Shown here one piece after another: positions 9,261 to 45,095 of a stretch of 64,000 nucleotides of DNA (position 1 is the first letter of the stretch; the number at the start of each line of letters is the position of its first letter). The notes below the pieces were generated by a model. It was not told the origin of the DNA. It ran no database searches and saw only the letters and a list, made by a program, of their open reading frames with translations. Made by a program: the position numbers and the translations under genes. Source of the DNA: Mesorhizobium sp. NZP2298 (lineage in GTDB: Bacteria > Pseudomonadota > Alphaproteobacteria > Rhizobiales > Rhizobiaceae); assembly GCF_013170825.1 (NCBI RefSeq), contig NZ_CP033365.1, positions 6,894,001 to 6,958,000 of the forward strand, read 5' to 3'.

Positions 9261-11942
9261 TCATCCTTCAGGCAAGTCGTCCAGCCAGCAGGCGCCCTCG
9301 AGGTGCGGCCGGGAGAATATCTTCCCAATCTTTCCCGGATTCTTGTTTTGATGATATCGCATATACACACGGTTATCGGCCGCAAGGTCGAGGATCTCGA
9401 TCTTCCCTGTGTAATGGGACATTATGTATTTGAACGTCTTTTGGATGCCGCTGAGACGTTGGTTGATGCCGTGCGCAATCTCTATTCCGCGGCGCAGCGG
9501 AACCTGAAAATGCGATGCGCCTTTCACCGGCCTGGCTTGAAAGAGATAATACGGGCGTACACCCATTTGGTGACACTTGGCGAAGGTTGTCGCTAAAATC
9601 TTGGAATCATCGTTGACATTCGCGAGAAGAACGGACTGATTGAGGAACTGCACGCCCTGAGCCCGCAAGGAGAGAATATTGCGCTCCGCATCGACCGAGA
9701 TTTCACCGATGTGATCGAAATGTGTGACGATCACTGCCGCCTTACCCGCTTCATGTATCCGTTGGAACAAAACCGGCAAAGCGGGATCCTCGAAGCGCTT
9801 GGGCTGATACGCGACTATTTTTGTACCAAAGCGAATGGAATCCAAATGGGTGATCGGCAGCAGATGATCTACAATCCTGTCGAGTTCGGCGGTGCTCAGT
9901 ACGAACGGGTCGCCTCCCGACAGCAGCACGTTCGTTATCTCAGGATGCCCATCAATATATCGAGCAATTCTCTCAAAATCAGGTGCGACTTCATCGGAGT
10001 CTTTGCCGACAATGCGTTTGCGAAAGCAAAAGCGGCAGTATGACGCGCAACGGTCCGTGACCAGCATCAACCCTGTTTGGGGATATTTGTGCTGAAGCCC
10101 GGGCACGACCGTGTTGTCGTGCTCGCCGCTCGTATCCAGATTGCCGGCAATCTGGAATTCTTTGAAGGACGGCTCCACAATGTACTTAAGTTGGTCGTAG
10201 TAAATGTTGGCGATCTGCTCCCGATAGAATTTTGTGACGAGATGACGCGTGATGCTGTTGGCTTGCAGCGAATCTTCGGTAACGACGCGCGTCCCCTCTA
10301 TGAAATTCATAACCGCAGAGCGGGGCCGCGGGTCCGAGTTGGTGAGCGGCCGTTGAGGCGAGCGCATCCGCGGCGCCGCCGACGTCGCCCCGGCGTTCAG
10401 CTGGCGATAACTTGGGCCCTGGTCCTCGGCGACCGCAATCGCCTCCGGATCCGCCTGCAACTCAAACAGCTCGTGGATGAAGCGGTCCTGCGGATAGGCC
10501 GCTTCGGCCGACTTGGGCTCCACCAGAGGATGACTACGTCCCTCCGCGGACTGGAAAGGCGCCGACCAGGCCCGCTGCTCGGGGTCAGCCACCATCTGGC
10601 TGAGTACCTGCTGCAAAAGCCCCGCAAACCGCTCGACCGTGCTTCGCTCAAAAAGCGACGTCGCGTAGATCAACCTCCCATGAATGGTCTCGCCGACCTC
10701 AGCGAGATCAAGCGCGAGGTCATGTTGCGCGACGCGATCACCAACCCCCACGTGCTCAAGTTCGAGCCGCGGCAGATCCGCCGACTCCACGCCATTGTTT
10801 TGCAATGAAAGCATGACGTGGACGATCGGCGTGTGCGCCACGGGGAGGTTACCGAGTTCCACCACTCGCTCAAACGGCAGGTCTTGGTTCGCCTGTGCCC
10901 CAAGCGCAGCGACATTCACCCGCTCCAGCAATGTCGCCAGCGTCGGACCGCCCGACAGATCGATTCGCAGCGCCAGGATATTGACGAATAGGCCAATCAG
11001 CCCCTCGATCTCGGAGCGCATGCGGTTGGCGCTGGGTGTGCCGATCACCAGCTCGTCCTGACCCGACAACCGCGCCAGCACGAGCGCCCAGCCCGCCAGC
11101 AGAGTCACGAACAGCGTCGTTCCATGACGTCGGCTCATCGTCTTGAGCTGCGTGGTCAGCGGCTCGTGCAGCACGAATTCGACGTAACTGCCGCTGTAGT
11201 TCTGCTGAGCCGGACGCGGCCGATCCGTCGGCAGTTTCAGCACGGCTGGCGCGCCCGCCAGCGTGCGAAGCCAGTATTTCGACTGACGCTCGAACACCTC
11301 GCCGGCCAGGAAACGGCGCTGCCAAAGGGCGTAGTCCGCGTACTGCACCGGCAACGGCGCCAGCCGATCCGCACGGCCCTCCCGGGCTGCGGCGTAAAGC
11401 TCGCTGAGCTCGTGTGTTAGGATCTTCCGCGACCAGTCGTCCGAGACCATGTGGTGCATGGTGATCAGCAGCACATGATTGTCGATCGCCAAGCGCACCA
11501 ATCGTCCGCGGATCATCGGCCCGGCTTCCAGGTCGAACGCCGTCTCCGCTTCATGGCGCATCAGATCCGCGAGCGTCGCCTCCACATCCGCTGCAGCCGT
11601 TAGATCGTCTCGCTTCAGCGGCAGGCCGACGCGCACCGGCCCGATCCGCTGGAACGGCTCGCCGTTCTCCACCCCGAAGGTGGTGCGAAGCACCTCGTGA
11701 CGGGTCAACAACCCGTTCAACGCTCGCTGCAGGGCCGCCTCGTCCAGCTCGCCGCGAAACCGAAGCCCCATCTGGATGTGGCAGGCCTCGCTGCCGCCCG
11801 ACACGCGCCAAAGGCGCCAAAGCCGCTGTTGGGGGAATGACAGCGGCACCCGGGGGGGACGGAGCAGAGCTTCGATTGGCGGGACCGCACTCGATAGTGC
11901 AGCGTCTATCGCATTGATTTGGATCGTTCGAGCGAGCTTCAT
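9261..11942 (-). CDS. NRPS condensation domain fused to KamA-type radical SAM aminomutase
   Basis: An 893-residue fusion. Residues about 30-450 are a nonribosomal peptide condensation domain (RVPLSFPQQRLW, RHEVLRTTFG, active-site HHMVSDD at 163-169, and PFERVVELG). Residues 484-517 begin an adenylation domain (HELFELQADPEAIAVAEDQG, SYRQLNA) that breaks off. From Met545 the protein is a lysine 2,3-aminomutase-like enzyme of about 349 residues with the radical SAM triad CASYCRFC (Cys632, 636, 639) and LSGGDPF. The catalytic motif normally reads HHxxxDG; here Asp replaces Gly. Start 11942 was chosen because a sigma54 promoter lies just upstream (12004-12019); ATG 11981 would sit almost on the transcription start. 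KamA alone could also start at 10310, but no ribosome site is visible there. Confidence 0.8.
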   Translation of the reverse strand: MKLARTIQINAIDAALSSAVPPIEALLRPPRVPLSFPQQRLWRLWRVSGGSEACHIQMGLRFRGELDEAALQRALNGLLTRHEVLRTTFGVENGEPFQRIGPVRVGLPLKRDDLTAAADVEATLADLMRHEAETAFDLEAGPMIRGRLVRLAIDNHVLLITMHHMVSDDWSRKILTHELSELYAAAREGRADRLAPLPVQYADYALWQRRFLAGEVFERQSKYWLRTLAGAPAVLKLPTDRPRPAQQNYSGSYVEFVLHEPLTTQLKTMSRRHGTTLFVTLLAGWALVLARLSGQDELVIGTPSANRMRSEIEGLIGLFVNILALRIDLSGGPTLATLLERVNVAALGAQANQDLPFERVVELGNLPVAHTPIVHVMLSLQNNGVESADLPRLELEHVGVGDRVAQHDLALDLAEVGETIHGRLIYATSLFERSTVERFAGLLQQVLSQMVADPEQRAWSAPFQSAEGRSHPLVEPKSAEAAYPQDRFIHELFELQADPEAIAVAEDQGPSYRQLNAGATSAAPRMRSPQRPLTNSDPRPRSAVMNFIEGTRVVTEDSLQANSITRHLVTKFYREQIANIYYDQLKYIVEPSFKEFQIAGNLDTSGEHDNTVVPGLQHKYPQTGLMLVTDRCASYCRFCFRKRIVGKDSDEVAPDFERIARYIDGHPEITNVLLSGGDPFVLSTAELDRIVDHLLPITHLDSIRFGTKIVAYQPKRFEDPALPVLFQRIHEAGKAAVIVTHFDHIGEISVDAERNILSLRAQGVQFLNQSVLLANVNDDSKILATTFAKCHQMGVRPYYLFQARPVKGASHFQVPLRRGIEIAHGINQRLSGIQKTFKYIMSHYTGKIEILDLAADNRVYMRYHQNKNPGKIGKIFSRPHLEGACWLDDLPEG

Positions 11943-12003
11943 GTAGACCCCTGGGCCGGAGTGCGAGACAGCTGTGGCCATAACAGTGCCTCACCTTGTC
12001 CCA

Positions 12004-12019
12004 TGCAATCGACGTGCCA
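12004..12019 (-). promoter_or_regulatory. Consensus sigma54 (RpoN) -24/-12 promoter
   Basis: Read on the minus strand the sequence is TGGCACGTCGATTGCA, a full match to the TGGCACG-N4-TTGCA consensus. It lies 62 bases upstream of the chosen start of the condensation-KamA gene and points at it. I did not find a TGT-N10-ACA NifA site within about 500 bp upstream, so the activator is not settled. Confidence 0.75.
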
Positions 12020-12686
12020 CCGATGTTGTTGCTGCCAGGAGCGGCAAAATAATCCGTTTCGTGCCGGAACGGCGGAATACTTGCGCCTCATGTGTCAGGT
12101 TCCAAGCAAACACGTCTTCAACCGGACACAGCTGAACACAGCAACAAGGACGTCGAGTGACGACGGTCGCCTGCCGAGATGGTGAATGCAGGGGCTCCGT
12201 GGGCGGGCCTCCCGCACAGGCCGCTCGAGCGCGACGGGCTCCAAAAACATGGCGATGACGGCACGTAGGCGGGCGGAGCGCCCATGGCAAACAAACAGCG
12301 CGCTGTTTTTTTCGAGCAGGCGTGCCACCAAACAGGTCATTTTCAAACCAGACGAACATATTGTGGGAGGCGGATCTGGTTGCAGGCGAGATAGCCGCCA
12401 AGCATGGCGATTTGCAGCAGGTAAGCGGCCACCGTGGGCCCTTAGAGGCTCCGGTCGCATTCGGGACGCTGTGCTCCGGTCGGCCATAGGGCGCAAGCGC
12501 GCGCTCGTGCCGCACTGCGGTAGCCAAGTTGTGTAACGGATCCTTCAAATAACTTTACAGGATCTTTGCGACCGCAAATGGCTGCCAATGATACCTTCAC
12601 CGCAAGGTCTAGGTCAGGCACGAATAAAAGCCGACAGCTGTTTACGATCAGACCGATGCATAGCAGGCAAGGGAAGGTCGTCGCCA
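12020..12686. other. Divergent intergenic region, no gene recognised
   Basis: This 667-bp stretch lies between the minus-strand condensation-KamA gene and the plus-strand ATP-grasp gene. No open frame here resembles a known family. Apart from the sigma54 site at its left edge I see no clear operator. A weak GG-N10-GC element at 12285-12300 is not convincing. Confidence 0.45.
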
Positions 12687-13976
12687 ATGGCAAGAAGAGC
12701 GCTCATTCTGATTGAAGGTCATAGGGGTATTGGTCTGAGATACGTTCAAGCGACCCAGACTCTTGGTCTCGAGCCAATTACCCTGTCGGCTGATCCAGCA
12801 CGCTACGACTATCTTGCGGCGGAAAAGCTTGAGGCAATCCGCGTTGATACAGCCAATCTCGATGCGCTGATCCGCGAATGTTCCCGACTACGCATGACCT
12901 ACGACATCGCTGGCATTACTGGCCTTTCGGACCTCAGCGAGTCAGTCTATGCGACAGTTGGCGAGCTCTGCCGGTACTTCAATCTACCGGGACCGAACCC
13001 CGCATCGATCGAACAATGTTGCGACAAATTCACCCAACGTCAGCTCCTTGCGGAAGCCGGTGTTCCAGTACCTGCCTATCGCCTGGCAGCGAATGCATTG
13101 GAGGTTGAAAGTTCTGCCGCGGAGATCGGCCTGCCGGTGATTGTGAAGCCAGCTGCAGGCAGCGGTAGCAGCGGTGTCCGCTTGTGCCGCAACATCGATG
13201 AGTTGGCCAAACATACGACCCATCTGTTGGGCGAGAAGCACCTAAGGCTTTCGCCGAGGATACTGGTCGAAGAATTCGCACAAGGCCCATTCTATAGTGC
13301 TGACACAATGGGAAATGAAGTCGTTGGGATTGAGGGCGCTGACTTCGATCGCCCACCGCACTTCGTCTTTCGTGAATGCATCTTTCCTGCCTTGCTAGCT
13401 GACGACGAGTACAAACATATCGCCGATGTTTCGCTGAGATGCTTGCTAGCTCTCGGCCTCGGCTGGGGGCCAACGAACATTGAGTTCCGGTGGACGAAGC
13501 GTGGCCCAGTCGTCATTGAGGTCAATCCGCGCCTTCCGGGTGGGGTTAATCCTAAGCTGTTTCGGCTGGCTTACGGTGTCGATCTCATCAACGAGCACAT
13601 CAAGCTTGTCATCGGCGAGGAGTGGGACTTGCGCAAAAGACATTCGCACTATGCGGCAGCGCGCTTCCTAAATCCTGATCGCGACGGCATCCTTAATTGG
13701 ATCAATGGCGCCACTCGCGCGGCTGCCATACCAGGTGTCGCCGAAGTCAAAATTTATGCTGAACCGAAAACGTCAATCGTTAGGCGAGGCGACTCCCGTG
13801 ACACCATCGGCCATGTAATCGCCGCCTCAGGAAGCAAAGCTGAGACAGAGGCGATACTGCGGCGTGCCGTCGACCTAATCGCTTGGTCGATTACACCCTT
13901 TCCGACACTTGGCGAACAGAGACAATCCGCGGCCCGCAACGTCCTCGCACCAAGTATGATCGTCGGCAAAGATTAG
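12687..13976 (+). CDS. ATP-grasp carboxylate-amine ligase
   Basis: A 429-residue ATP-grasp enzyme. An N-terminal pre-ATP-grasp fold (RRALILIEGHRGIGLRYVQA) leads to the central and C-terminal lobes: GLPVIVKPAAGSGSSGVRLC (the ATP-binding loop), RILVEEFAQGPFYS, and the Mg-binding strand PTNIEFRWTKRGPVVIEVNP with the following RLPGG. These enzymes form amide or related bonds through an acyl-phosphate. Start ATG 12687 has GGGAAGG nine bases upstream; an upstream in-frame ATG at 12588 lacks one. It is divergent from the condensation-KamA gene. In this setting it may join an amino acid to an amine or hydrazine, but its substrates cannot be read from the sequence. Confidence 0.8.
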   Translation: MARRALILIEGHRGIGLRYVQATQTLGLEPITLSADPARYDYLAAEKLEAIRVDTANLDALIRECSRLRMTYDIAGITGLSDLSESVYATVGELCRYFNLPGPNPASIEQCCDKFTQRQLLAEAGVPVPAYRLAANALEVESSAAEIGLPVIVKPAAGSGSSGVRLCRNIDELAKHTTHLLGEKHLRLSPRILVEEFAQGPFYSADTMGNEVVGIEGADFDRPPHFVFRECIFPALLADDEYKHIADVSLRCLLALGLGWGPTNIEFRWTKRGPVVIEVNPRLPGGVNPKLFRLAYGVDLINEHIKLVIGEEWDLRKRHSHYAAARFLNPDRDGILNWINGATRAAAIPGVAEVKIYAEPKTSIVRRGDSRDTIGHVIAASGSKAETEAILRRAVDLIAWSITPFPTLGEQRQSAARNVLAPSMIVGKD

Positions 13977-18426: not shown

Positions 18427-19269
18427 TCAGGTCCACCAGAGAACGAGATCTGGCCGCGCAAACCCGAAAAAGCAATTCAGCAGCACCCGACGCTTTCCGT
18501 TGCCTGATTGACCGGTAACCCCATGAACGAAACCGCCGTCAAGTAGCGCGATATCCCCGGCCTTGAGCTGGATTTCGCGACTAGGCACGGCCTCAAGATA
18601 AGCTGCGGAGTAGGGATATCCCGTGGTCTCCACACCCTGCGACTTTCGATCTGCGACTGTCGGCTTGTGACTCCATAGTCTCAAGTTTCCACCTTCCTCA
18701 GGCATGCTGGGATAAAAGTTGAGTGCTGCGACGGTATTGTGCGCCACCGCAGAAAGCTCGTAATCGTTCCCAGCACGTAACACTTGAGCGACATCGTCGT
18801 GGGGGTCCAAGGAAAATGTGCCGCTTCCGGTCCAACTGAGAGCCCGACAAACGTTCGCCTGACCGTGTTCTGAGCGCGCCAGCCGCAATTCAATGCCTTG
18901 GTTGTGAAGCTCGCGCTTCAACGCGTCGAATAAGGCTCGGACCGGGTCAACTAAACAGCCAAAAAGAGCGTCAACGTGCGGCCGTGCAGTTTCTGCCTCC
19001 GCGAAATAGGTGGCTGCATCCTTCCTGTAGTGGGATGCGCCCACATATTGTCCGGGGACGCCATCTTTGCGCTCCCTGAGACCGGGACTGCCAAAAAACT
19101 TCGCGGTGATCTCCTCCGCTATTTCGGTGCTGAAAGCTTGGCTGATATGCAGAGCCGTGATCTCACCTTTTAGGACCGAGATGATCTCCGCAGTGCTGAT
19201 CGAGCCGGTTCGTTCCTCGATCGTAAGAGGCGAGATGGCCGGCGTTTGACGTGCTTGGTTAGTCGTCAT
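18427..19269 (-). CDS. 2-oxoglutarate/Fe(II)-dependent oxygenase
   Basis: A 280-residue non-heme iron oxygenase. The iron-binding pair is visible as DPHDDVAQV (His-x-Asp) and the distal His in IALLDGGFVHGVTGQ, with a likely 2-oxoglutarate-binding Arg in GKRRVLLNCFFGF. Its ATG at 19269 overlaps the end of the upstream aminotransferase by 11 bp and has an AGGAG ribosome site, so the two are one operon. It probably hydroxylates an amino acid or peptide linked to the aminotransferase product; the substrate is not known. Confidence 0.75.
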   Translation of the reverse strand: MTTNQARQTPAISPLTIEERTGSISTAEIISVLKGEITALHISQAFSTEIAEEITAKFFGSPGLRERKDGVPGQYVGASHYRKDAATYFAEAETARPHVDALFGCLVDPVRALFDALKRELHNQGIELRLARSEHGQANVCRALSWTGSGTFSLDPHDDVAQVLRAGNDYELSAVAHNTVAALNFYPSMPEEGGNLRLWSHKPTVADRKSQGVETTGYPYSAAYLEAVPSREIQLKAGDIALLDGGFVHGVTGQSGNGKRRVLLNCFFGFARPDLVLWWT

Positions 19270-20518
19270 TTGTTTTCTCCTGTAGTGCCTGATCGAGGAT
19301 GGCAATGCCGTGATCAAGTTCGTCATCTGAGATGGTTATCGGCGGAAGGACTTTGATGACGTCGCGATTTGGCCCCGACGATTCGATCAGCAGGCCGTTT
19401 TCGAACGCGACATCGTGCACACGGCCAACAACGGCCTGTGATCGGCACTTGAGGCCGGCCATCAGACCACGGCCGCGCTTTTGTTCGATGCACTTAGGGA
19501 ATTTCGCAACGAGGCGATCAAGGTGTTCTTGCAGTTTTACGGCCGTCCCCTCGACGGCTTTAGTAAACTGCCTATCGGACCACATTTTGCACATGGCCGC
19601 GGAAGTCACAAATGCGAGATTATTCCCTCTAAAGGTCCCGCTATGTTCTCCCGGATTCCATATGTCCATGTCAGGGCGAATCAGAACTATGGACAACGGA
19701 TTACCTGAACCGCTTAGCGATTTCGAAAGACATACGATGTCGGGCTCGATTTTTGCGAACTCAAATGAGAAGAAATCGCCCGTTCGTCCCGAACCTGCCT
19801 GAATGTCATCGACGATGAAAACAACGTCGTGCTTACGGCAAATGCGCTGAATTTCTGTGAGCCATGGTGCGGATGCGGTGTTCATGCCGCCTTCTGCCTG
19901 GATGGGCTCCAGGATGATTGCGGCCGGCTTTTCTATGCCGCTGCCTGGGTCGCCCAACACGTGATCAATGTAACTCGCGGAATCGAAAGTTTGGTTCGGA
20001 TAGTTCTCGTAAGGGACACGGATCACATCGTGGCGAGCAACGCCGCCAAGCTGTCTGGTTGACGCTGAACCCGACACCGCTAAGGAGCCGAGCGACATGC
20101 CATGGTACGAATTTGTGAAGGCCATGACACTCGAGCGACTGGTATATTTTCGCGCCAGCGCCAACGCCGCTTCGTTAGCGTTTGTCCCGGTTGGCCCCGG
20201 AAACTGTATCTTGTAAGAAAGGCCTCGGGGCTTCAGGATTGACTCGACAAACACTTCGATGAAATCACGCTTTGCAGCTGTATACATATCAAGCGACAAA
20301 ATAATATTTTTATCGGCAAGATATTGAATTGCCGTCGCCATAATATCTTGATTGTTATGACCGTAATTGAGCGCGCCGGACCCAACAATGAAATCAATAT
20401 AAGGTTTTTCGGACTCGTCCCAGATTGTCGCCCCAAGAGACTTGGTAAAGACTGTTGGAAAGGATCGTCCATAGCGACGAACGTTAGACTCGTAAGCTTC
20501 AAAAATGTCGATATCCAT
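19259..20518 (-). CDS. Class III aminotransferase, diaminobutyrate--2-oxoglutarate type (EctB-like)
   Basis: A 419-residue PLP-dependent aminotransferase, the length of EctB. It begins MDIDIFEAYESNVRRYGRSF and shows YIDFIVGSGALNYGHNN, GPTGTNANEAALALARKYT, AFTNSYHGMSLGSLAVSG, IVDDIQAGSGRTGDFFSFEF and the PLP-lysine segment VCLSKSLSGSGNPLSIVL. EctB-type enzymes convert aspartate semialdehyde to 2,4-diaminobutyrate with glutamate as donor. No ectA or ectC is nearby, so the product more likely feeds a secondary metabolite, with the overlapping downstream oxygenase as partner. ATG 20518 has a GGAGAGG site. Confidence 0.8.
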   Translation of the reverse strand: MDIDIFEAYESNVRRYGRSFPTVFTKSLGATIWDESEKPYIDFIVGSGALNYGHNNQDIMATAIQYLADKNIILSLDMYTAAKRDFIEVFVESILKPRGLSYKIQFPGPTGTNANEAALALARKYTSRSSVMAFTNSYHGMSLGSLAVSGSASTRQLGGVARHDVIRVPYENYPNQTFDSASYIDHVLGDPGSGIEKPAAIILEPIQAEGGMNTASAPWLTEIQRICRKHDVVFIVDDIQAGSGRTGDFFSFEFAKIEPDIVCLSKSLSGSGNPLSIVLIRPDMDIWNPGEHSGTFRGNNLAFVTSAAMCKMWSDRQFTKAVEGTAVKLQEHLDRLVAKFPKCIEQKRGRGLMAGLKCRSQAVVGRVHDVAFENGLLIESSGPNRDVIKVLPPITISDDELDHGIAILDQALQEKTNDD

Positions 20519-21372
20519 TAAATGGCCTCTCCGTATGCGGCTTGCGATCAACGCTGCAGGTTCTATGTTCACGCATTCCAAACCATCGATATCGACGATT
20601 AGCTTCGGCCAATATCGGACTTAAAGCGAACGTATCATGGTCAGCGACTTGCATTCGCAAAGAGTCTGTAAACTTGTTTGACGAATCTGTTGCAACGCTT
20701 TTTATAGCGATAGCGTGACAGTCAGTGCCCGCCTTTGCGGCAAGGCTATCGGCGGCGTTGTTGGCTGGGGCGACTGACACAACCGCATCGGTTTTTCCAG
20801 CATGACTGCAACCACGATGCTTTGATATTTCTCTACCTCCGCCATGACGGGATTCCTTGCCGGCGAGTGGCTGTGACAAATAGCGATTTCTCTCCTGTGA
20901 CGGCGAGACCGGTGCTCGCTCGAATTTCGTTTTGACGCGGACGAGCGAGACCGCGATTCCCACAGAACTGGAACTGACCGCGGCCGCTAATCGTGGCCGT
21001 GGCCGCCGTGGCGGTGATTGCGCTGTTCCCTGGGCGGCGCGCTGGCCCACCTCCTGGCTTCACGGCATTTACAATGCCTCGGTCGGCCCTTGAGGTGACG
21101 GCCGCATTGCAGGCCACGGGCCGTGCACGCGAGTGGTGTTCGGCACCCACGAGCTGACGCAGACGGCGCCTGCTTCGAGAAGGCGCGATCGAAGCGGTTA
21201 TCGACAACCCCGGTGTTCGCCACCGTACCGTGTGGTGACGACGGCGCGGCTTTAGGAGCGCAGCACGACTAAGAGTTGCCACCCGGACCACATTTCATAT
21301 GATCGAAAAACGCTAGCTCAGGCGACGCACTATCGATGTGTCCACGCCGCTTGTGTGCGCAAGGTTTCACTC
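20519..21372. other. No gene recognised
   Basis: Intergenic region of 854 bp between divergent operons. Open frames present on both strands do not resemble known proteins. A short stretch at 20577-20600 resembles part of a nod box but is not convincing. Confidence 0.4.
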
Positions 21373-36948: not shown

Positions 36949-38949
36949 TTATGCCTCCTCCTCATTGAGAACAGGAAACTCTGCTCTGGCGTAGAAGCCT
37001 AGCACGGGTCCGAGATCAAAGGTCGTTCCTGGCGCAAGGCGCCGGACGGACGTGGGCCATGTTTCGGTCGAGACGCCATCGATAGCTCGCGCCAGCGTGC
37101 TGGCGAATCGGGGCATCAGCGGTGCGAGTGTCTGCGCCAGGATCGCAGCGGCCGTCGTCTGAAGGGCGAGCGAAGTGCGGGTGCGGGCGGGATAGAGACG
37201 TCGCGCCGCTTCATAGTCTTGCGCCTGTCGGTAGACTACACAATCGCTCACGAAATCGCAGGCCAGCGCGGCCGCGCGCCGGACCGAGAAGCCATCGTCC
37301 GAATAGGCGCGTTCCATCGCCGCGCGATGGATCTCTATCCGAGCAAAGAAAGCGCGATCGGCGGGAGCCCAGTCGCCAGCATCGGGCACACAGCCGCCAA
37401 AGTTCTGCTTGATTTCCCCGTGCAGCGCATCAAGCCAATTCAGCCAGATTCCTTGGAACACCTCGTTCTCTGTGCGGCGTAGCGCGTCCAGCGTGAAGTT
37501 CGTCCGCTCACCTTCCGGGCGTGTCAGGCCCAAATGAAGACGTACGACATCGACTGTCTTTTGGCCCAGAACCTCTTTGCCCCAGACCGCATGGCTGCGG
37601 CTTGTCGAGAACTTCTGACCGTCGAGCAGGTAGAACTCGTTCACATGATACCGGATGCGCGGCGTCCAGTGGGAGAAGACCTCAGCATAAAGCGCCGGAT
37701 AAAGCAGGGCGTGGTAGAAGGAATTATCGAAGCCGAAGAAATGGACAATTTGCCAGTCCTTGCTGGGCAGGGCCGCATTCCAGTGTCGACCGAGCGATGT
37801 AGCTAGCGTCTGGATGTTGTAAAGAAAGCCAAACGCCATCTCTGGCCAGACCCAGGTCACCTGCCCCGGGAACCCCTCGGCCGGTAGCCCCCAGTCCGAC
37901 GGGTGGATGATGGGCACGGAAAAGTCGCCGCGTTGGCGTAGACGCGCGAAGAGGTCCATGATCCGAACGGGGGCGCCCGACGCCCTTAAATGCCGGTCGA
38001 TATTGTCGTAGCACCGTTCCAGCGCAAGTTCGGGACGGCGCACGGAGCCGACCACCGGCGCCTCGGCCGAGTGCCGCGACCGGACTGCATCTAGGTCGTG
38101 GCATAGGTTCGGTGCGCCGCATTCCTCGCAGATGTTGCCACCAGCGGAGCTGCCGCAATCGGGGCAGAGGCCGCTTACATCCGGCTCGTAAAGGTAGTCG
38201 CCTGTCACAGCATCGAAGAGCGCAGGGCTTTGGCGCAGATCTACCGCCGCGCTGCTCAGAAGACTACGGAAACACGCGGCTTGAAACTCTGCATAAGCGC
38301 TATCGCCCAAGGTGGGGAGGAAGCTGTGGACCTCACAGTCGAGAAGCGCAAGCGTGGCTCGAATCTCGTCGGCGTGGTGGCGCGCCACCTTTCCGGGCGT
38401 CGATTGATCGGCATCGGCACGCGTGGCGACGTAGCTCTGGTAATCGTCGCTTCCAGTCAGGTGATAGGCTTCGACCCCTTTCATGCGCAGGAAACGCGTG
38501 TAGACATCGGCGCCAAGATAAGGGCCAGAAAGATGCCCCAGATGCAGATCGCCATTAGGCGTCGGCGGCGTGGAGAAGACGAAGATCGGCCCGCGGGGAA
38601 TCGCGACCTGTGCAGCAGCTTCGAGGGCCGCCTTGCCGTCGCACCAGTAGACATCGACGAAGTTTAGGTTTTCGAGCCCATCGTTGTGCAGCACATGCGC
38701 TTCAAAAGGATGGAACAGAACGACATCGCCGGCTGCGACCGAGATTTCCCCAAGGTCGGTCCTGACCTTGCCCGCTCCAGACAGGACCACGAAGGCCTCG
38801 ATTTCGTCGTGCCGATGGGGCTCGGATGTGACGCCTGGTGCCACCTTGCCAAATGAAAACCCGGTGCCCGCGCTTCCCGTCCCAAGCGCAGCCATGTCGA
38901 TACCGAACACCCGCGACAGCTGCGTTCGAGAAAACGTGGATTTCCGCAT
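36949..38949 (-). CDS. Cupin/methionyl-tRNA-synthetase-like fusion (hydrazine synthetase type)
   Basis: A 666-residue two-domain protein. Residues 20-105 form a cupin with metal-binding HRH (45-47), E51 and H85 (SEPHRHDEIEAFVVLSG, FHPFEAHVLH). Residues 120-660 resemble class I methionyl-tRNA synthetase: HLGH at 136-139 in PNGDLHLGHLSGPYLGADVY, a zinc ribbon with Cys262, 265, 274 and 277 and the KMSKS-equivalent KFSTS at 446-450. This exact architecture is that of Spb40, Tri28 and PyrN, which activate an amino acid and join it to an N-hydroxylated lysine, the cupin then rearranging the ester to an N-N bond. A lysine/ornithine N-hydroxylase gene lies upstream on the same strand, as in those pathways. 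ATG 38949 has a GAGG site; 39033 is an alternative. Confidence 0.85.
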   Translation of the reverse strand: MRKSTFSRTQLSRVFGIDMAALGTGSAGTGFSFGKVAPGVTSEPHRHDEIEAFVVLSGAGKVRTDLGEISVAAGDVVLFHPFEAHVLHNDGLENLNFVDVYWCDGKAALEAAAQVAIPRGPIFVFSTPPTPNGDLHLGHLSGPYLGADVYTRFLRMKGVEAYHLTGSDDYQSYVATRADADQSTPGKVARHHADEIRATLALLDCEVHSFLPTLGDSAYAEFQAACFRSLLSSAAVDLRQSPALFDAVTGDYLYEPDVSGLCPDCGSSAGGNICEECGAPNLCHDLDAVRSRHSAEAPVVGSVRRPELALERCYDNIDRHLRASGAPVRIMDLFARLRQRGDFSVPIIHPSDWGLPAEGFPGQVTWVWPEMAFGFLYNIQTLATSLGRHWNAALPSKDWQIVHFFGFDNSFYHALLYPALYAEVFSHWTPRIRYHVNEFYLLDGQKFSTSRSHAVWGKEVLGQKTVDVVRLHLGLTRPEGERTNFTLDALRRTENEVFQGIWLNWLDALHGEIKQNFGGCVPDAGDWAPADRAFFARIEIHRAAMERAYSDDGFSVRRAAALACDFVSDCVVYRQAQDYEAARRLYPARTRTSLALQTTAAAILAQTLAPLMPRFASTLARAIDGVSTETWPTSVRRLAPGTTFDLGPVLGFYARAEFPVLNEEEA

Positions 38950-39267
38950 GACGAACCTCAGCTGTCGAAACAGTGGTCTCTTCGGCTGCCGACGCAACAG
39001 CATCTGCTGCAAGTTGCGAAGGCAGCCCGACACGTTGGCCCCCGTCAGAATAGTCCGGCTCTGGGCCCCAGGCGGGCGAAACTACGGGCGCCAGGAGGGC
39101 TTTAGGCGTCACAGAAGAGCGCCCGGCGACACCTTCACATCGACATACCGAAGCGTCGTGACGGACTGCAGGCGATGCTCCAGTAGCCGGCAATCAAAAC
39201 CATGCTCTCCGCGCATTTTTTTGGCGGCCGATCAGTTTCGTTTGCATTCCCGCCTGGTTCCGTGAGC
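38950..39267. other. Intergenic region between PhyH and cupin-MetRS genes
   Basis: A 318-bp gap within the minus-strand block. No separate gene, terminator or sigma54 site was found. The cupin-MetRS gene may therefore be read from the upstream promoter at 42539-42554. Confidence 0.45.
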
Positions 39268-40047
39268 TCAATCGCGATAGAAAATGCCGTTTGGGAGCTT
39301 GAGGTTGTCGAGATCAGCCACTTTGCCCTCTGGCGGATTAAGGGCGCGCTTAAGCACGTTATATTCAGCGCGGGTCGGTCCACCGGTTGAAGCACGCTGG
39401 AACACCAAGTAGAGCGTCCGCCGCGAACGATTGCTTTTATTCGGCTTCGAGTAATGCGGTGCATAATCGTCGAAGATGAAGATGTCGCCAGCCTTCCATA
39501 CTGCGGGTTCCCAGGAGAATGTTTCGGCGACCTCAGGATCAATCACCCCGCCGGCATCCATGGGAAATACCCCCTTCTTGTGGTTGCCGGGGCTGAAGAA
39601 AAGGCCACCATTGTCCGGGTCGGAATCGTCAATGCCTATGGCAACGATCGCATGGACCATCCGGTCGGGCAGCCTGTGTGGAATGTGATAAATGTCCTGA
39701 TGCGGGCGATAACCGCCGCTATCGGGATAGTGGAAGATCAGCAACTCCTTGAGTCTGCGCGAATCTTCGCCAAGCAAATCCTCGACCGCAGAGTTTATGC
39801 GCTGATCTTCTAGGAGGAGCAGACGCAATGGGTCATGGAAGTCCAGAAAATTCTCGGCCTTAGAGGTGATCTTTCGATCATCAGTCGTCTTCTCGAACCA
39901 CATGAGCCATTTATCATCGCTGACATCCCAGCGTGATATGTCTTCAACAAAGCTAGACATACCTTCCACAGCCGCGGGATCGAAGAACCTTTCGAGCCTG
40001 ACGTATCCGTCTTTCTGCCACTTTTCTCTGTGTGCATCGGTCAACAT
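39268..40047 (-). CDS. Phytanoyl-CoA dioxygenase (PhyH) family non-heme iron oxygenase
   Basis: A 259-residue PhyH-type 2-oxoglutarate/Fe(II) dioxygenase. It begins MLTDAHREKWQKDGYVRLER and has the iron-binding His-x-Asp in GGYRPHQDIYHIPHRL, the GLFFSPGNHKKGVFPMD turn, and the distal His in FIFDDYAPHYSKPNKSNRSR with the following Arg residues for 2-oxoglutarate. Such enzymes hydroxylate small molecules, for example EctD on ectoine. ATG 40047 is supported by AGGAGG nine bases upstream; 40083 has no such site. It sits between the N-hydroxylase/FAD genes and the cupin-MetRS gene, so it likely tailors the same metabolite. Confidence 0.82.
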   Translation of the reverse strand: MLTDAHREKWQKDGYVRLERFFDPAAVEGMSSFVEDISRWDVSDDKWLMWFEKTTDDRKITSKAENFLDFHDPLRLLLLEDQRINSAVEDLLGEDSRRLKELLIFHYPDSGGYRPHQDIYHIPHRLPDRMVHAIVAIGIDDSDPDNGGLFFSPGNHKKGVFPMDAGGVIDPEVAETFSWEPAVWKAGDIFIFDDYAPHYSKPNKSNRSRRTLYLVFQRASTGGPTRAEYNVLKRALNPPEGKVADLDNLKLPNGIFYRD

Positions 40048-40092
40048 GCGAAAAGCCTCCTGTTGGAAAGAGTGGTTGGTCAAACATTCCGG

Positions 40093-40809
40093 TTAGAGGC
40101 AGTCGGGCGCCGTCAGGGTGTGGGCCGGAGACGATACTCCACGGCATGCAGACGGCGACGCAAAGTGCGTTCCGCTCCGGGTGGATTGCAAGGCTTTGTT
40201 GTCCCTCCTCAATGGAGAGATCGCCCAGGCCCGTAAAGATCTATCGATCCGGTACGTCTGCATAGTAGTCACGGCCGAGCATGCTGTTGATGGTGCGACT
40301 GCCCGATAAGAGGACCTTTCGTGCAGCCTGACGCAACGCAAGTCGTGCGCCGCGCAAATGTTTGCGACAAGTTCCCGTTCGGGTCGGGCGATCAGGGAGG
40401 CACGTCGCTGGCATCGGGTCCATCGATGCTCCAAAAACGAGTATTGTCCGCACAAGTTCGGCGCTAGACTGCCCATCCGAGGCCAAGCCGGGTCCTCGGG
40501 TTCCCTAAGCTGGTCCCCATCACTTACCTCTCCTTCAGCCACCACACGCATCGCTACGGGCGGGAGGCCTCCGCTGACGGCCGACGCAGCCATGGCCGTT
40601 AGGGCCACTGGGCACTTTCGAGTGAGCGACCTTGTACGGTTTCGACGACCGTGGGGCAAATTCTCGCCCGCAGAATTAAGCGATGCGCCCATAGGTCCAA
40701 GGGCATGTTCAGTCACGATGAGTCCGGAGCGGGCTCCGGACTGCGCCGCGGCGGAGGCGGATAAAATTCCTTGGATGCCACCGCCGATGATCAGTAGTCG
40801 CTGAGTCAT
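40093..40809 (-). pseudogene. FAD-dependent amino-acid-oxidase-like protein, probably decayed
   Basis: The start overlaps the N-hydroxylase stop (ATGA at 40806-40809), showing a former or present operon. The first 50 residues are a Rossmann FAD fold: MTQRLLIIGGGIQGILSASA with GGGIQG, then GPMGASLNSAGEN as in glycine/D-amino-acid oxidases. Beyond about residue 55 I see no family motifs, only low-quality arginine-rich sequence, so frameshifts or deletions are likely. In the triacsin pathway an FAD oxidase of this kind (Tri27) releases hydrazinoacetate from the lysine-glycine hydrazine, and its place in the operon fits that role. Whether any function remains is unclear. Confidence 0.55.
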
Positions 40810-42365
40810 ATCCCGCTGCCCATTTCTTCGGCTACCGGGTCGGGCCAGCTCTCGACGGTGGTACGGCTGATAAAGCCAGGATGCTCAGGGTTCGCGCACG
40901 GCGCGCGCTGTAGAAGGCTGTCAAGAATGCGGCGAGCTCGCCAGGCCAGCAGGCTTAGGTTCGGATCGGCCAGCCCGCGCTGCCCGGGATTGGCGTTCTG
41001 TACGAAGATGCGTCTGTCACGCGGTCCGTCCCAGCACACCGAAAAATCCTCGTTGATGACCAACTCATTGTCGGTCTGTTGCAGCCGATCCGCCATCGGT
41101 TCCAAAAAGCTTGGCACGGCGTTCTCGTAACCGGTGGCCAGGATGACGATGTCGGCCGTGACTTCTTCGACGTCGCCCAAGCCGCGCTGCAGCGTCAACT
41201 TATGACCCGCGCCGGCGTTGATGCAGCGCGAAACGTTGCAACCCGGCCGCAGTGCGATGTCACATAGGTCTGGCTCAAGAAATTCGTGGCGATACAGCGC
41301 CTGGTAGACGGCGCGCAAAGTGCGATCCGAAATACCATCCGAGGCGAGCACGAAACGCCGCAGGAACAGCTTGCGCTGCGGCTCGCTCATTACCGCGAAA
41401 CGATCCGAAAAACAGGGCATGAACAACTCGTTTGTGAACGGGCTGTTGTCGAGGGGCAGGTAGTTTTCGCGCTGCGAGACCCAGGTGATCGAGGCAGGCC
41501 GCCGTTCTCTTGGCCCACCGACCAAATGCAACAGCACCTCGGCTCCCGACTGGCCTCCACCAACGATGCAAACATGTTTATGGCGCACCTCAGGATGGAT
41601 GTGCAGCAAATCGGATGAATGGAACAGGTTGCGTCCGATCCAGCCCTGAAATTGAGGGGGAATCCGCGCTTGCTTACCGATGCCGACCACTAGGTCTCTG
41701 GCACTGAGAACTGCATCGTCCGTCCGCACCCGAAACTCGCCATCATAGCGTATTTCGCGGACGGTCTCGCCGCCGCGCACAAGTGGGTTTCTGCGGAACG
41801 CCCAGTTCAGGTATTGTTCGAACTCAGCCCTGAGCACAGCATCGAACTGTGCATTCAGAAAGTGGTATAGACGCCCGTTCTCGTGCAGGTAGTTTATGAA
41901 CGTGTAGGCGGATCGCGGATTCACCAGCGTGACCAGATCCTTGATGTGGCTGACCTGGAGTTCTGAGGACTCGAATGCGCTGCCTGGATGCCAGCGGAAG
42001 TCGACTTGCCGATCCAAGAACAGTGCCCCGTGCCCAACCTGCTCATGGATCTGACACGCGAGGCTCAAATTGGACGGGCCAGCACCGATCCCAATGCAAG
42101 AGAGCTCCAGGTGCCTTGCTCCTGCTGACGCCTCCCAATCAGGCGCTGTACGCGGCGAATGTCGGCCATAGCCGGTCGGCTTGCCCTCCCCGCACGCATC
42201 ATCGACACCACAGGACTTGCAACAGTTTGTCCGGGCGTTCGTAGTATCGGGTGTGACGCCCGCGGATGCCGGCTCCGTGATGAGATCGGCACTCATGCCG
42301 ACGACATGTTGCGCGTGGCTGGCATCAAGACTCCCGCCTCGATGACCCGGAGTGGTCAGTGACAT
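40806..42365 (-). CDS. L-lysine/ornithine N-monooxygenase (IucD/SidA family)
   Basis: A 519-residue flavin N-hydroxylase. The FAD motif is CIGIGAGPSNLSLACQ (GIGAGPSN at 92-99); the substrate region includes FRWHPGSAFESSELQVSHIK and LVNPRSAYTFINYLHENGRL; the NADPH motif is VCIVGGGQSGAEVLLH (269-274); the LATGYEN motif is at 409-415. These enzymes hydroxylate the side-chain amine of lysine or ornithine, in siderophores or, as Spb38 and Tri26, before N-N bond formation. No siderophore synthetase or receptor is nearby; the cupin-MetRS gene is, favouring the hydrazine role. The first 86 residues, with CCKSCGVDDACGEG, are an extension of unknown role. A sigma54/NifA promoter lies about 170 bp upstream. 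Confidence 0.85.
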   Translation of the reverse strand: MSLTTPGHRGGSLDASHAQHVVGMSADLITEPASAGVTPDTTNARTNCCKSCGVDDACGEGKPTGYGRHSPRTAPDWEASAGARHLELSCIGIGAGPSNLSLACQIHEQVGHGALFLDRQVDFRWHPGSAFESSELQVSHIKDLVTLVNPRSAYTFINYLHENGRLYHFLNAQFDAVLRAEFEQYLNWAFRRNPLVRGGETVREIRYDGEFRVRTDDAVLSARDLVVGIGKQARIPPQFQGWIGRNLFHSSDLLHIHPEVRHKHVCIVGGGQSGAEVLLHLVGGPRERRPASITWVSQRENYLPLDNSPFTNELFMPCFSDRFAVMSEPQRKLFLRRFVLASDGISDRTLRAVYQALYRHEFLEPDLCDIALRPGCNVSRCINAGAGHKLTLQRGLGDVEEVTADIVILATGYENAVPSFLEPMADRLQQTDNELVINEDFSVCWDGPRDRRIFVQNANPGQRGLADPNLSLLAWRARRILDSLLQRAPCANPEHPGFISRTTVESWPDPVAEEMGSGI

Positions 42366-42538
42366 GCTTTCGCAGCCTATCCCTCATTGCAATTGGGCTC
42401 GGTTGCCCGCCTCGACCGTGATGAGCCGACCTTCGGCCTGCTTGGCGACCAGCTAGGGCACGGTCATGAGTGCGGCGACAGCATTTTTCCGTGGGTTTGA
42501 TCATAGAAGACATCCGCTGCTGGGTTCGGGAGGTCCCC

Positions 42539-42554
42539 TGCATCGAACGTGCCA
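42539..42554 (-). promoter_or_regulatory. Sigma54 -24/-12 promoter of the N-hydroxylase operon
   Basis: Read on the minus strand, TGGCACGTTCGATGCA matches TGGCACG-N4-TTGCA at all but one position. It is 174 bp upstream of the N-hydroxylase start, in the right direction, and 45 bp downstream of a NifA site. Confidence 0.75.
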
Positions 42555-42598
42555 GAGCAAAACATCAGCAAAAGCAACGGAAGGCAGGTTTGCGATCC

Positions 42599-42614
42599 TG
42601 TCGAGTACCCAACA
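42599..42614 (-). promoter_or_regulatory. NifA upstream activating sequence (TGT-N10-ACA)
   Basis: TGTCGAGTACCCAACA on the plus strand fits the symmetrical TGT-N10-ACA site. Its distance to the -24 element is shorter than at nifH here (about 90 bp) but close to that at iscN (64 bp). Confidence 0.65.
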
Positions 42615-43710: not shown

Positions 43711-44598
43711 TCAGGTCCTATCGTTTGGATCGGCAAATTCACACATCCTGCAAAGCAGAAAACCAGCCGCTCCATTCATGCGATCGACGATTTCGCAAAA
43801 AACTGGGCTTTTAAAGAGATCGTCATATTCGTCGCATAGAAGGTTGCCCAATACGTGACGCCGCTCAAAATCCATGGAGCAGAGAGTAACCTCGCCGTTT
43901 GGAAGGAGTACATTCCGATACTGCCGTTCGTCCACGCATATCAGCGCTCCGACGACTGGCTGCCGTGGTTCTACAATCTTAGGGTCTACGCTTCCACCCC
44001 TGCTGCTCACCGGTCGCGCGCGAACTAGGGCTTGGGCAGGGATAATGTCGGCGATATCGGGATGGGGCTCACCCAAAACCACGAATCGGATCGAAGGGAT
44101 GTCGGCGTCGACGAGTTGACCAACCAAATCGCGATACTTGTCTCCGACAAGGCGGCTATTCATGTGGGCGCCATCATCAAAAACATGAACCACGAATACC
44201 CCCAACCGCAGCGCCTGCAAGCGTTGTAGATCCCGCCCCTTCATTCCCACAAGCGTCGTGAAAATCCTGATGCCGTGGCCTTTGGCGGAAGCGTGCTCGA
44301 CCATTTCGGTGCAATCCGGATTGAGCCATGGCTCAGAATACCCGGCAAAACTAATGTCGACGGAGGCTGGTACGCGCGCCAGACAGCGCTTGAAATCTCC
44401 AAGACTAAGATGCTTCGTATCAGATACTTTTCTTTGCCGGTCAGCGAACTTGTCCTGCGGACAATATGAACATCCCACGATGCATCCTGTGGTCGTCGTT
44501 ATCTCCAAAACTCTGCCGGCTGGGATAGCAGAGCGCAGTTCCGGTAAAATCATTCGTTGTGACTCCCACTCGTCTTGGTCATGCATAACGTCCAGCAT
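43711..44598 (-). CDS. Radical SAM protein with C-terminal SPASM-like cysteines
   Basis: A 295-residue radical SAM enzyme. The cluster motif is GRVLEITTTTGCIVGCSYCP (CxxxCxxC); ASVDISFAGYSEPWLNPDCT provides the GG/SEP-like segment. C-terminal cysteines in GALICVDERQY, NGEVTLCSMDFERR and FLLCRMCEFADPN resemble a short SPASM/twitch domain binding an auxiliary cluster. Function is not recognisable; related proteins modify peptides or small molecules. It is co-directional with the N-hydroxylase operon but separated by the gmd remnant. ATG 44598 is chosen; the ribosome site is weak and 44736 is an upstream alternative. Confidence 0.7.
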   Translation of the reverse strand: MLDVMHDQDEWESQRMILPELRSAIPAGRVLEITTTTGCIVGCSYCPQDKFADRQRKVSDTKHLSLGDFKRCLARVPASVDISFAGYSEPWLNPDCTEMVEHASAKGHGIRIFTTLVGMKGRDLQRLQALRLGVFVVHVFDDGAHMNSRLVGDKYRDLVGQLVDADIPSIRFVVLGEPHPDIADIIPAQALVRARPVSSRGGSVDPKIVEPRQPVVGALICVDERQYRNVLLPNGEVTLCSMDFERRHVLGNLLCDEYDDLFKSPVFCEIVDRMNGAAGFLLCRMCEFADPNDRT

Positions 44599-44743
44599 GG
44601 TGTCTTTGGCTTCATGACACCGACGGTCAAGACAGTCCGAATGAGCCAGCCATCTCCGCCTGGGTTTCCTCAATCTGCCGAGCGGACTATCAACGAACTT
44701 TGGGCGCATCGGCGCGGCAGGGCGGCGCAACCGCAAAGTCGCG

Positions 44744-44806: not shown

Positions 44807-45095
44807 CAGACCATCAATCGTCTCGCGTTCTTATGCGGTCAGCCCCCACTCAATATTGCCGCATCTCCAGCAAAGGCCGTGCCAGCGCGCTTAGCCGCAG
44901 CAACTGCACGAGTAGGCTTCGAGAAACCTCACGCCCAAGGCGGCCGGTGGTTTTGGACCAGACATGTTTTTTGTCGCTGTCAGCTTTTGGACATGCATTT
45001 CATACGCTTGAGGACAGACTTGGCTATCTCCCCTGCGGTAATGTTGGCGTCGGCTCATCATCTAGCATCATTTCGGCGCCGGCTGTGTGCGCGGA
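44807..45095. repeat. Imperfect direct repeat R2 (about 290 bp), right of the hydrazine block
   Basis: Counterpart of 36332-36620 in the same orientation. It begins immediately after the acdS fragment. It could be the scar of a duplication or of recombination that brought in the 8.2-kb block between the copies. Confidence 0.7.

Follow-up and report, generated by a model that had tools for sequence, protein, structure and literature searches.

A NifA/sigma54-type operon of Mesorhizobium sp. NZP2298 predicted to make an amino-acid-linked hydrazine in nodules, with a PhyH dioxygenase gene between the stumps of the flavin oxidase that it likely replaced

What could a rhizobium make with an N-hydroxylase, a PhyH-family dioxygenase and a cupin fused to a methionyl-tRNA synthetase (MetRS)-like domain, all placed behind a nitrogen-fixation promoter? 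The question is raised by an operon of Mesorhizobium sp. NZP2298 lying in a stretch of 64,000 nucleotides (the window; GCF_013170825.1, NZ_CP033365.1, positions 6,894,001-6,958,000, from a genome that is a single contig of 7.34 Mb), to which all coordinates given here refer. On the minus strand it reads, in order, an upstream activating sequence (UAS), a -24/-12 site, the N-hydroxylase gene, a stump of an FAD oxidase, the PhyH gene and the cupin/MetRS fusion. Frames of nifHDKEN type, matched to an annotated Mesorhizobium plasmid, lie upstream at a distance of about 8-15 kb, and downstream come fdxB and acdS; the link of the operon to nif rests on this linkage within loci and on the promoter. 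We consider it quite probable that this is a symbiosis-region operon with a NifA/sigma54-type promoter, which is predicted to produce an amino-acid-linked hydrazine in nodules and in which PhyH sits between the remains of the FAD oxidase that it likely replaced. An earlier note on this DNA had proposed a hydrazine-forming operon under nitrogen-fixation control. The NifA-type site, near-consensus sigma54 promoter, lysine/ornithine N-hydroxylase gene, PhyH gene and 666-residue fusion with HLGH, KFSTS and HRH motifs that it named are all borne out below, and hydrazine formation is supported by homology; the metabolite itself is still a prediction, and the flavin oxidase step falls.

The prediction of an N-N bond comes from the fusion (36949..38949, minus strand, 666 aa), a predicted hydrazine synthetase matching tRNA-synt_1g (3.7e-49) and Cupin_2 (5.2e-12). 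Its zinc-cupin ligands H45 and H47 (in the HRH motif, residues 45-47), E51 and H85 are invariant in all 24 aligned sequences, and signatures of the HIGH/KMSKS type are kept as HLGH (136-139) and as K446 of KFSTS (446-450). In PyrN, the cupin/MetRS fusion of pyrazomycin formation, Glu56, His52 and Lys458 are critical and His90 and His50 less so (PMC8664883; the PMC sources are cited throughout from the parts of them that were available), and the window fusion retains every one of these, all four zinc-cupin ligands as well as the lysine of KFSTS. Indeed, PyrN (9l8v) is its top solved relative by sequence, with 208 bits versus 117 for the best true MetRS, and by fold as well (TMt 0.89, for a fusion model with a mean predicted local distance difference test score, pLDDT, of 82). 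The cupin part also matches by sequence 5UQP, that is RHS1, a zinc cupin forming N-N bonds (PMC8664883). Furthermore, the fusion stays below every listed MetRS equivalog cut-off (best 237 of 553 bits), the true MetRS of the genome is encoded elsewhere, at 4.37 Mb, and the genome has one cupin/MetRS fusion gene. In a tree of 27 rows, midpoint-rooted and with several weak forks and a very long MetRS outgroup branch, the window fusion falls inside the fused cupin/MetRS proteins and away from the MetRS-like proteins that the PhyH clusters described below encode by separate genes; it groups with the fused proteins and not with true MetRS, a placement that the earlier note had named as refuting. Sequence and predicted fold together place it in the hydrazine-synthetase family, and we predict that it forms an N-N bond.

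Which amino acid it would activate is suggested by the pocket. The pocket motif regions resemble those of 28 fused homologues of carrier-domain length, apart from two Tyr-to-Phe changes and an Ala in place of the predominant Ser, and they differ from those of PyrN, which uses glutamate. The 28 were chosen for exceeding 735 aa, and some of them lack a precomputed carrier domain; their use of glycine is deduced from the azaserine pathway as reviewed. Because the motifs resemble the carrier-length homologues and differ from PyrN, glycine is our best guess for the amino acid activated, and glutamate is not favoured.

The control of the operon can be addressed as well. The UAS TGTTGGGTACTCGACA (42599..42614, minus strand; TGT-N10-ACA), a motif conserved across all 23 rhizobial loci, and the -24/-12 promoter TGGCACGTTCGATGCA (42539..42554, minus strand; pattern match and conservation) are found together, with similar spacing, in 23 of the 23 rhizobial loci with the N-hydroxylase gene (window counted), one of which (L008) has CGG instead of TGG in the -24/-12 site. 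The pair occurs in none of seven outgroup loci, two of which have only the UAS and one just a -24/-12-like site. In the 23-locus alignment, column conservation is 0.93 for the UAS and 0.94 for the -24/-12 site, versus 0.78 between them and 0.66 farther upstream. The search pattern for -24/-12 sites, which was chosen so as to admit the operon's own site, gives 6 sites across the window against 0.32 expected in shuffles, and a UAS within 170 nucleotides upstream is met at a random place in 3.8% of draws.

The same promoter has been studied in Mesorhizobium loti R7A. There the msi280 promoter CTGGCACGTTCGATGCA (17 bases) is identical to the window -24/-12 site plus its preceding base, and stands ahead of an N-hydroxylase gene that the 2013 study calls only L-lysine 6-monooxygenase (PMC3538637). 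In nodules, expression of msi280::lacZ amounted to 371.6 (R7A), 268.9 (nifA1 mutant) and 7.3 (nifA2 mutant) Miller units (Table 4), with backgrounds of 6.4, 5.0 and 10.0, respectively (PMC3538637). The available part of that paper mentions neither msi277, msi278 and msi279 nor any link to hydrazine. The promoter conserved here and the NifA-dependent expression of msi280 support the assignment of the operon to the NifA-RpoN regulon. The R7A protein Q8KGM6 (CAD31310) is, moreover, listed as a hydrazine synthetase in Table 2 of a 2024 review (PMC11705231), which cites PMC8664883, where the available main text does not name it; we take Q8KGM6 to be a putative orthologue of the window fusion. The nifA2-dependent nodule expression and the listing of the R7A cupin/MetRS protein were thus known separately, both being absent from the earlier note, and no paper in the literature searched joined the two.

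How would the hydrazine be processed further? In the modules of the Spb38-Spb39-Spb40, Tri26-Tri27-Tri28 and azaserine types, the Spb and Tri systems being known here by gene names from papers and likened by description rather than by sequence, an N-hydroxylase is likewise followed by a cupin/MetRS protein. The window differs from them by a destroyed FAD oxidase, of which a remnant is kept in between, by the PhyH gene in its place and by the NifA/sigma54 promoter. The 5' remnant of this Spb39/Tri27-type oxidase (40315..40809, minus strand) covers codons 1 to about 166 in a DNA alignment to a contiguous FAD gene. The 3' remnant (38950..39118, minus strand) was delimited by aligning positions 9832-10098 of the Sinorhizobium terangae locus (L016) to window 39118-38852, and its end was set at the cupin/MetRS start though the alignment runs to 38852. 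The ATGA overlap with the end of the N-hydroxylase gene that the earlier note had seen is present (40806-40809), but it leads into a remnant and not into a working oxidase: the FAD frame matches TIGR03364 over some 65 aa with 19.8 bits against a cut-off of 285, and the open frame 40093-40809 has a near-neutral median dN/dS (nonsynonymous over synonymous divergence) of 0.87 in 14 comparisons. Here and below, dN/dS values are medians of pairwise comparisons against the window with dS above 0.05 and up to about 0.7, and these comparisons all share the window sequence and hence are not independent.

The history of this gene can be read in the relatives. The S. terangae locus is without PhyH and has an FAD gene that is contiguous and nearly complete but frameshifted close to its end, beside a frameshifted N-hydroxylase and a cupin/MetRS frame with a stop. 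Aligned to it, the other loci split its sequence in two: a 5' block, from the N-hydroxylase end to at most FAD codon 166, lies upstream of PhyH, and a 3' block, beginning at about codon 294 and reaching the cupin gene, lies downstream. Codons 167-293, approximately, are absent from all compared loci by this alignment. Both stumps flank PhyH in 22 of the 23 loci compared (window counted), the 5' block stopping within the first 25 or so codons in four (L009, L010, L019 and L022), whereas the locus without N-hydroxylase (L028) has the 3' block only. With a profile built from eight full-length oxidases, 12 of the 22 PhyH-bearing loci searched show the two remnants at E<=0.01; in the window the profile finds the 5' remnant and leaves the 3' one, though matched in relatives, unmatched. 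Given the short family match, the split around PhyH and the near-neutral dN/dS, a working FAD oxidase was rejected. The intact hydrazine-cleaving oxidase of the Spb39/Tri27-type hydrazinoacetate pathway is therefore missing, its gene being disrupted in the window as in all PhyH-bearing relatives examined, and the Tri27-type step put forward earlier has to be abandoned.

The gene that stands between the stumps encodes a PhyH-family Fe(II)/2-oxoglutarate dioxygenase of 259 aa (39268..40047, minus strand; PF05721, 1.6e-41; start as in relatives). Its HxD...H...R residues, H116, D118 and H198 of the facial triad and R209/R210 for 2-oxoglutarate binding, are invariant in 18 of 18 aligned sequences. 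Its family is small: a word-based search through 5.8 billion sequences yielded 28 protein clusters with E<=1e-20. Among plasmids, PhyH matched 45 records, and in 35 of these the identity reached at least 60%. Relatives of PhyH define a second type of rhizobial cluster, studied in M. amorphae, Rhizobium CB3090, CCGE531, R. etli CIAT 652 (pB) and two further genomes of the window's family. As in the window, PhyH follows the N-hydroxylase in these clusters, but cupin and MetRS-like proteins are then encoded by separate genes, usually adjoined by major facilitator superfamily (MFS) and pyridoxal phosphate (PLP)-type regulator genes. The PhyH proteins are 72-81% identical to that of the window, whereas identity is only 35-36% for the N-hydroxylases, 28-33% for the cupins and 29-30% for the MetRS-like proteins. 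The annotation of the four named clusters shows no DAO-type oxidase, and a BLAST search with the FAD query found none in L037-L040, L045 and L046, two of these six records being only 3.8 kb long; in CCGE531 (L040), an FAD/NAD(P)-binding gene adjoins the cluster on the opposite strand, its best match being NAD_binding_9 and not DAO. The NifA promoter pair was not found in the second clusters by the pattern used. In CIAT 652 the cluster (L037 10651-14740) sits between nodA/nifHDK and nodD genes, with an N-hydroxylase that is unannotated yet aligns over its length and a split MFS gene.

PhyH would hence occupy the place of the oxidase in both cluster types, as it is surrounded by FAD stumps here and comes without an annotated oxidase in the second type. 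A swap of dioxygenase for oxidase is further suggested by the much higher likeness of PhyH than of the other genes across the two types. PhyH has thus likely replaced the FAD oxidase between whose remains its gene stands, and we infer that it oxidises the hydrazine, by cleavage or by hydroxylation. Our literature search for PhyH with hydrazine returned no paper on the second clusters and none placing PhyH in hydrazine pathways.

Cleavage and hydroxylation lead to different end products. PhyH might merely C-hydroxylate the lysine or the glycine part, giving a hydroxylated hydrazino-bis-amino acid, and we regard this as a serious contender, of somewhat less than even probability. Hydroxylation is the commonest reaction of its family, and the fold matches of PhyH include the amino-acid hydroxylases proline hydroxylase H11, GriE and EctD; on the other hand, PhyH holds in both types of rhizobial cluster the position of the hydrazine-cleaving oxidase gene of their relatives. 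The hydrazine claim itself is unchanged by this choice. A much bolder proposal is that the dioxygenase, in replacing the flavin oxidase, frees hydrazinoacetate by oxidative C-N cleavage, and that this NifA-controlled nodule product, a close isostere of aminooxyacetate, inhibits PLP enzymes such as the host 1-aminocyclopropane-1-carboxylate (ACC) synthase and, alongside the neighbouring NifA-controlled ACC deaminase, lowers ethylene; we hold it to be unlikely.

Taken with the predicted functions of the other genes, the following course of events can be proposed, in which the steps after the promoter are deduced from the named protein families. NifA2 and RpoN2 would switch the operon on inside the nodule; the N-hydroxylase would supply N6-hydroxylysine or a shorter homologue; adenylation of a small amino acid, most likely glycine, by the MetRS-like domain would lead to an O-acyl hydroxylamine; the zinc cupin would rearrange this ester so as to create the N-N bond; and PhyH, with 2-oxoglutarate, would oxidise the hydrazine in the flavin oxidase's stead. 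The likely product would be a lysine-glycine hydrazine oxidised by PhyH. No non-ribosomal peptide synthetase (NRPS), acyltransferase or exporter gene is found in the operon.

Several points weigh against this interpretation. The comparisons of the fusion, the 27-row tree included, leave out the Spb40 and Tri28 sequences, and the orthology of Q8KGM6 is assumed from the presence of just one gene of this kind in the window's genome, and is not derived from sequence. The structure model of PhyH is of middling confidence (pLDDT 68). The FAD query also missed true DAO-type genes beside MetRS-like genes in Pantoea (L041) and Deinococcus (L043), so that the absence of an oxidase from the second clusters rests mainly on annotation. 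In R7A, aatA, asnB and pepM, which are listed without NifA promoters, also drop in nifA2 nodules, and the nifA2 dependence of msi280 could be partly indirect, for instance via the Fix- nodule; an msi280 insertion mutant is fully effective (Fix+) on Lotus corniculatus (PMC3538637). The operon appears to be dispensable, since only 16 of the 23 related loci keep N-hydroxylase, PhyH and fusion genes all intact, the other seven having at least one gene broken, stop-bearing or missing, in some cases perhaps through draft-assembly errors. Finally, no report of hydrazine from nodules was found in the literature examined: a term search of the available parts of two bacteroid studies (PMC3973600 and PMC3750425) gave nothing on the operon genes, and in the available part of PMC5011921 the ordinary MetRS is the only one named.

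Is the operon then a vestige, transcribed from its NifA promoter into a product of no consequence? The damage in seven loci, the Fix+ phenotype of the msi280 mutant and the loss of the FAD oxidase would fit, but we judge this improbable in view of the selection on the genes, with dS reaching about 0.7, and of a promoter kept in 23 of 23 loci. Indeed, median dN/dS is 0.15 for the N-hydroxylase core (19 comparisons), 0.16 for PhyH (21 comparisons) and 0.27 for the fusion (22 comparisons); since these values are low and that of the FAD frame is near neutral, the three genes appear to have been kept and the oxidase not. Beyond the related loci, the cupin/MetRS protein was found in 2 of 394 genomes sampled from the window's family and PhyH in 3 of 397 sampled from its order (window's genome counted in both); these samples, spread across many genera, are little informative on rhizobia, and both proteins are absent from their listed members of the window's own genus.

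The substrate of the N-hydroxylase (40806..42365, minus strand; an FAD-dependent diamine/amino-acid N-hydroxylase of the SidA/IucD/PvdA family, of R7A msi280 type; PF13434, 1.8e-87) opens another alternative. The conserved core begins at about 42105, and a start near 42110 rather than 42365 is favoured because the N-terminal extension is poorly conserved and the 131-3-5 annotation gives a protein of 434 aa; the core is intact in 21 of 23 related loci, being frameshifted in L016 and absent from L028. Instead of lysine, the enzyme might act on L-2,4-diaminobutyrate from the nifA2-dependent aminotransferase of msi260 type (19262-20620), leading to an actinopyridazinone-like hydrazine. Apy11 and Apy9 take N4-hydroxy-diaminobutyrate and alanine as substrates (PMC11705231), nodule expression of msi260 is strong (PMC3538637), and 16 of the 22 operon-bearing rhizobial genomes that were searched have a relative of the aminotransferase with at least 84% identity. 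However, such a relative is lacking in the other six, three of which have an intact operon (L007, L013 and L014), though drafts may be incomplete; a WelO5-like gene adjoins the aminotransferase gene, suggesting a separate pathway; and the N-hydroxylases that were compared, 42-46% identical to that of the window, adjoin hydrazinoacetate-type FAD oxidases, and the members of that type that have been studied use lysine. We find this route more doubtful still than a vestigial operon, and having no close relative in those six genomes the aminotransferase was rejected as an obligatory partner.

That the N-hydroxylase serves to form a hydroxamate siderophore or some different N-hydroxy metabolite, with the fusion as a misnamed tRNA synthetase paralogue, would fit the Pfam and NCBIfam names of the parts but is very improbable, given the widely missed MetRS cut-offs, the separate MetRS of the genome, PyrN as best match and the lack of siderophore-type genes in the operon.

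The three-gene form of hydrazine module is found whole on Streptomyces plasmids and on pSmeSM11b of S. meliloti (L032), where N-hydroxylase and fusion are 45% and 48% identical to those of the window. This accessory plasmid carries an azaserine-like cluster with N-hydroxylase, FAD oxidase, cupin/MetRS, NRPS, acyl carrier protein, GNAT, iron-containing redox enzyme and acyl-CoA-dehydrogenase-family genes.

The window holds other features of related kinds. A radical SAM/SPASM frame of 341 aa (43711-44736, minus strand) is faced by a promoter at 44884-44870 with a UAS at 44993; this promoter is the R7A NifA-type promoter CTGGCACGGCCTTTGCT, reported in the R7A study (PMC3538637) as reverse-oriented and without annotated genes, and the frame is possibly its target. 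The radical SAM gene was rejected as a general part of the pathway, being present in 11 of 23 loci as fetched (some short) and intact in 8 of these 11. A further UAS (33507) and -24/-12 pair (33431-33417, minus strand) is present. The class III aminotransferase gene of msi260 type, nifA2-dependent in R7A, is followed by that of the WelO5-like 2-oxoglutarate enzyme (18430-20620, minus strand), and in L030 both genes are located some 1.2 kb behind a broken cupin/MetRS gene. At 9264-13973, one gene joins an NRPS condensation domain to a radical SAM domain, the latter weakly matched, and a divergent ATP-grasp gene of L-amino-acid-ligase type lies there too; a sigma54-like site (12019-12005) directly precedes the fused gene, and no UAS was found there.

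In conclusion, what is new here is the purifying selection on the three genes, the near-neutral FAD remnant and the position of PhyH between the FAD stumps. The change from oxidase to dioxygenase is a clear-cut natural example of a rewired pathway, with a contiguous gene in one species and two stumps elsewhere, and it points to a small PhyH family as likely hydrazine-tailoring enzymes. If our reading is true, a NifA-regulon gene known since 2013 only as a lysine monooxygenase would be assigned a pathway, and an N-N-bond metabolite would join the compounds specific to nitrogen-fixing bacteroids.

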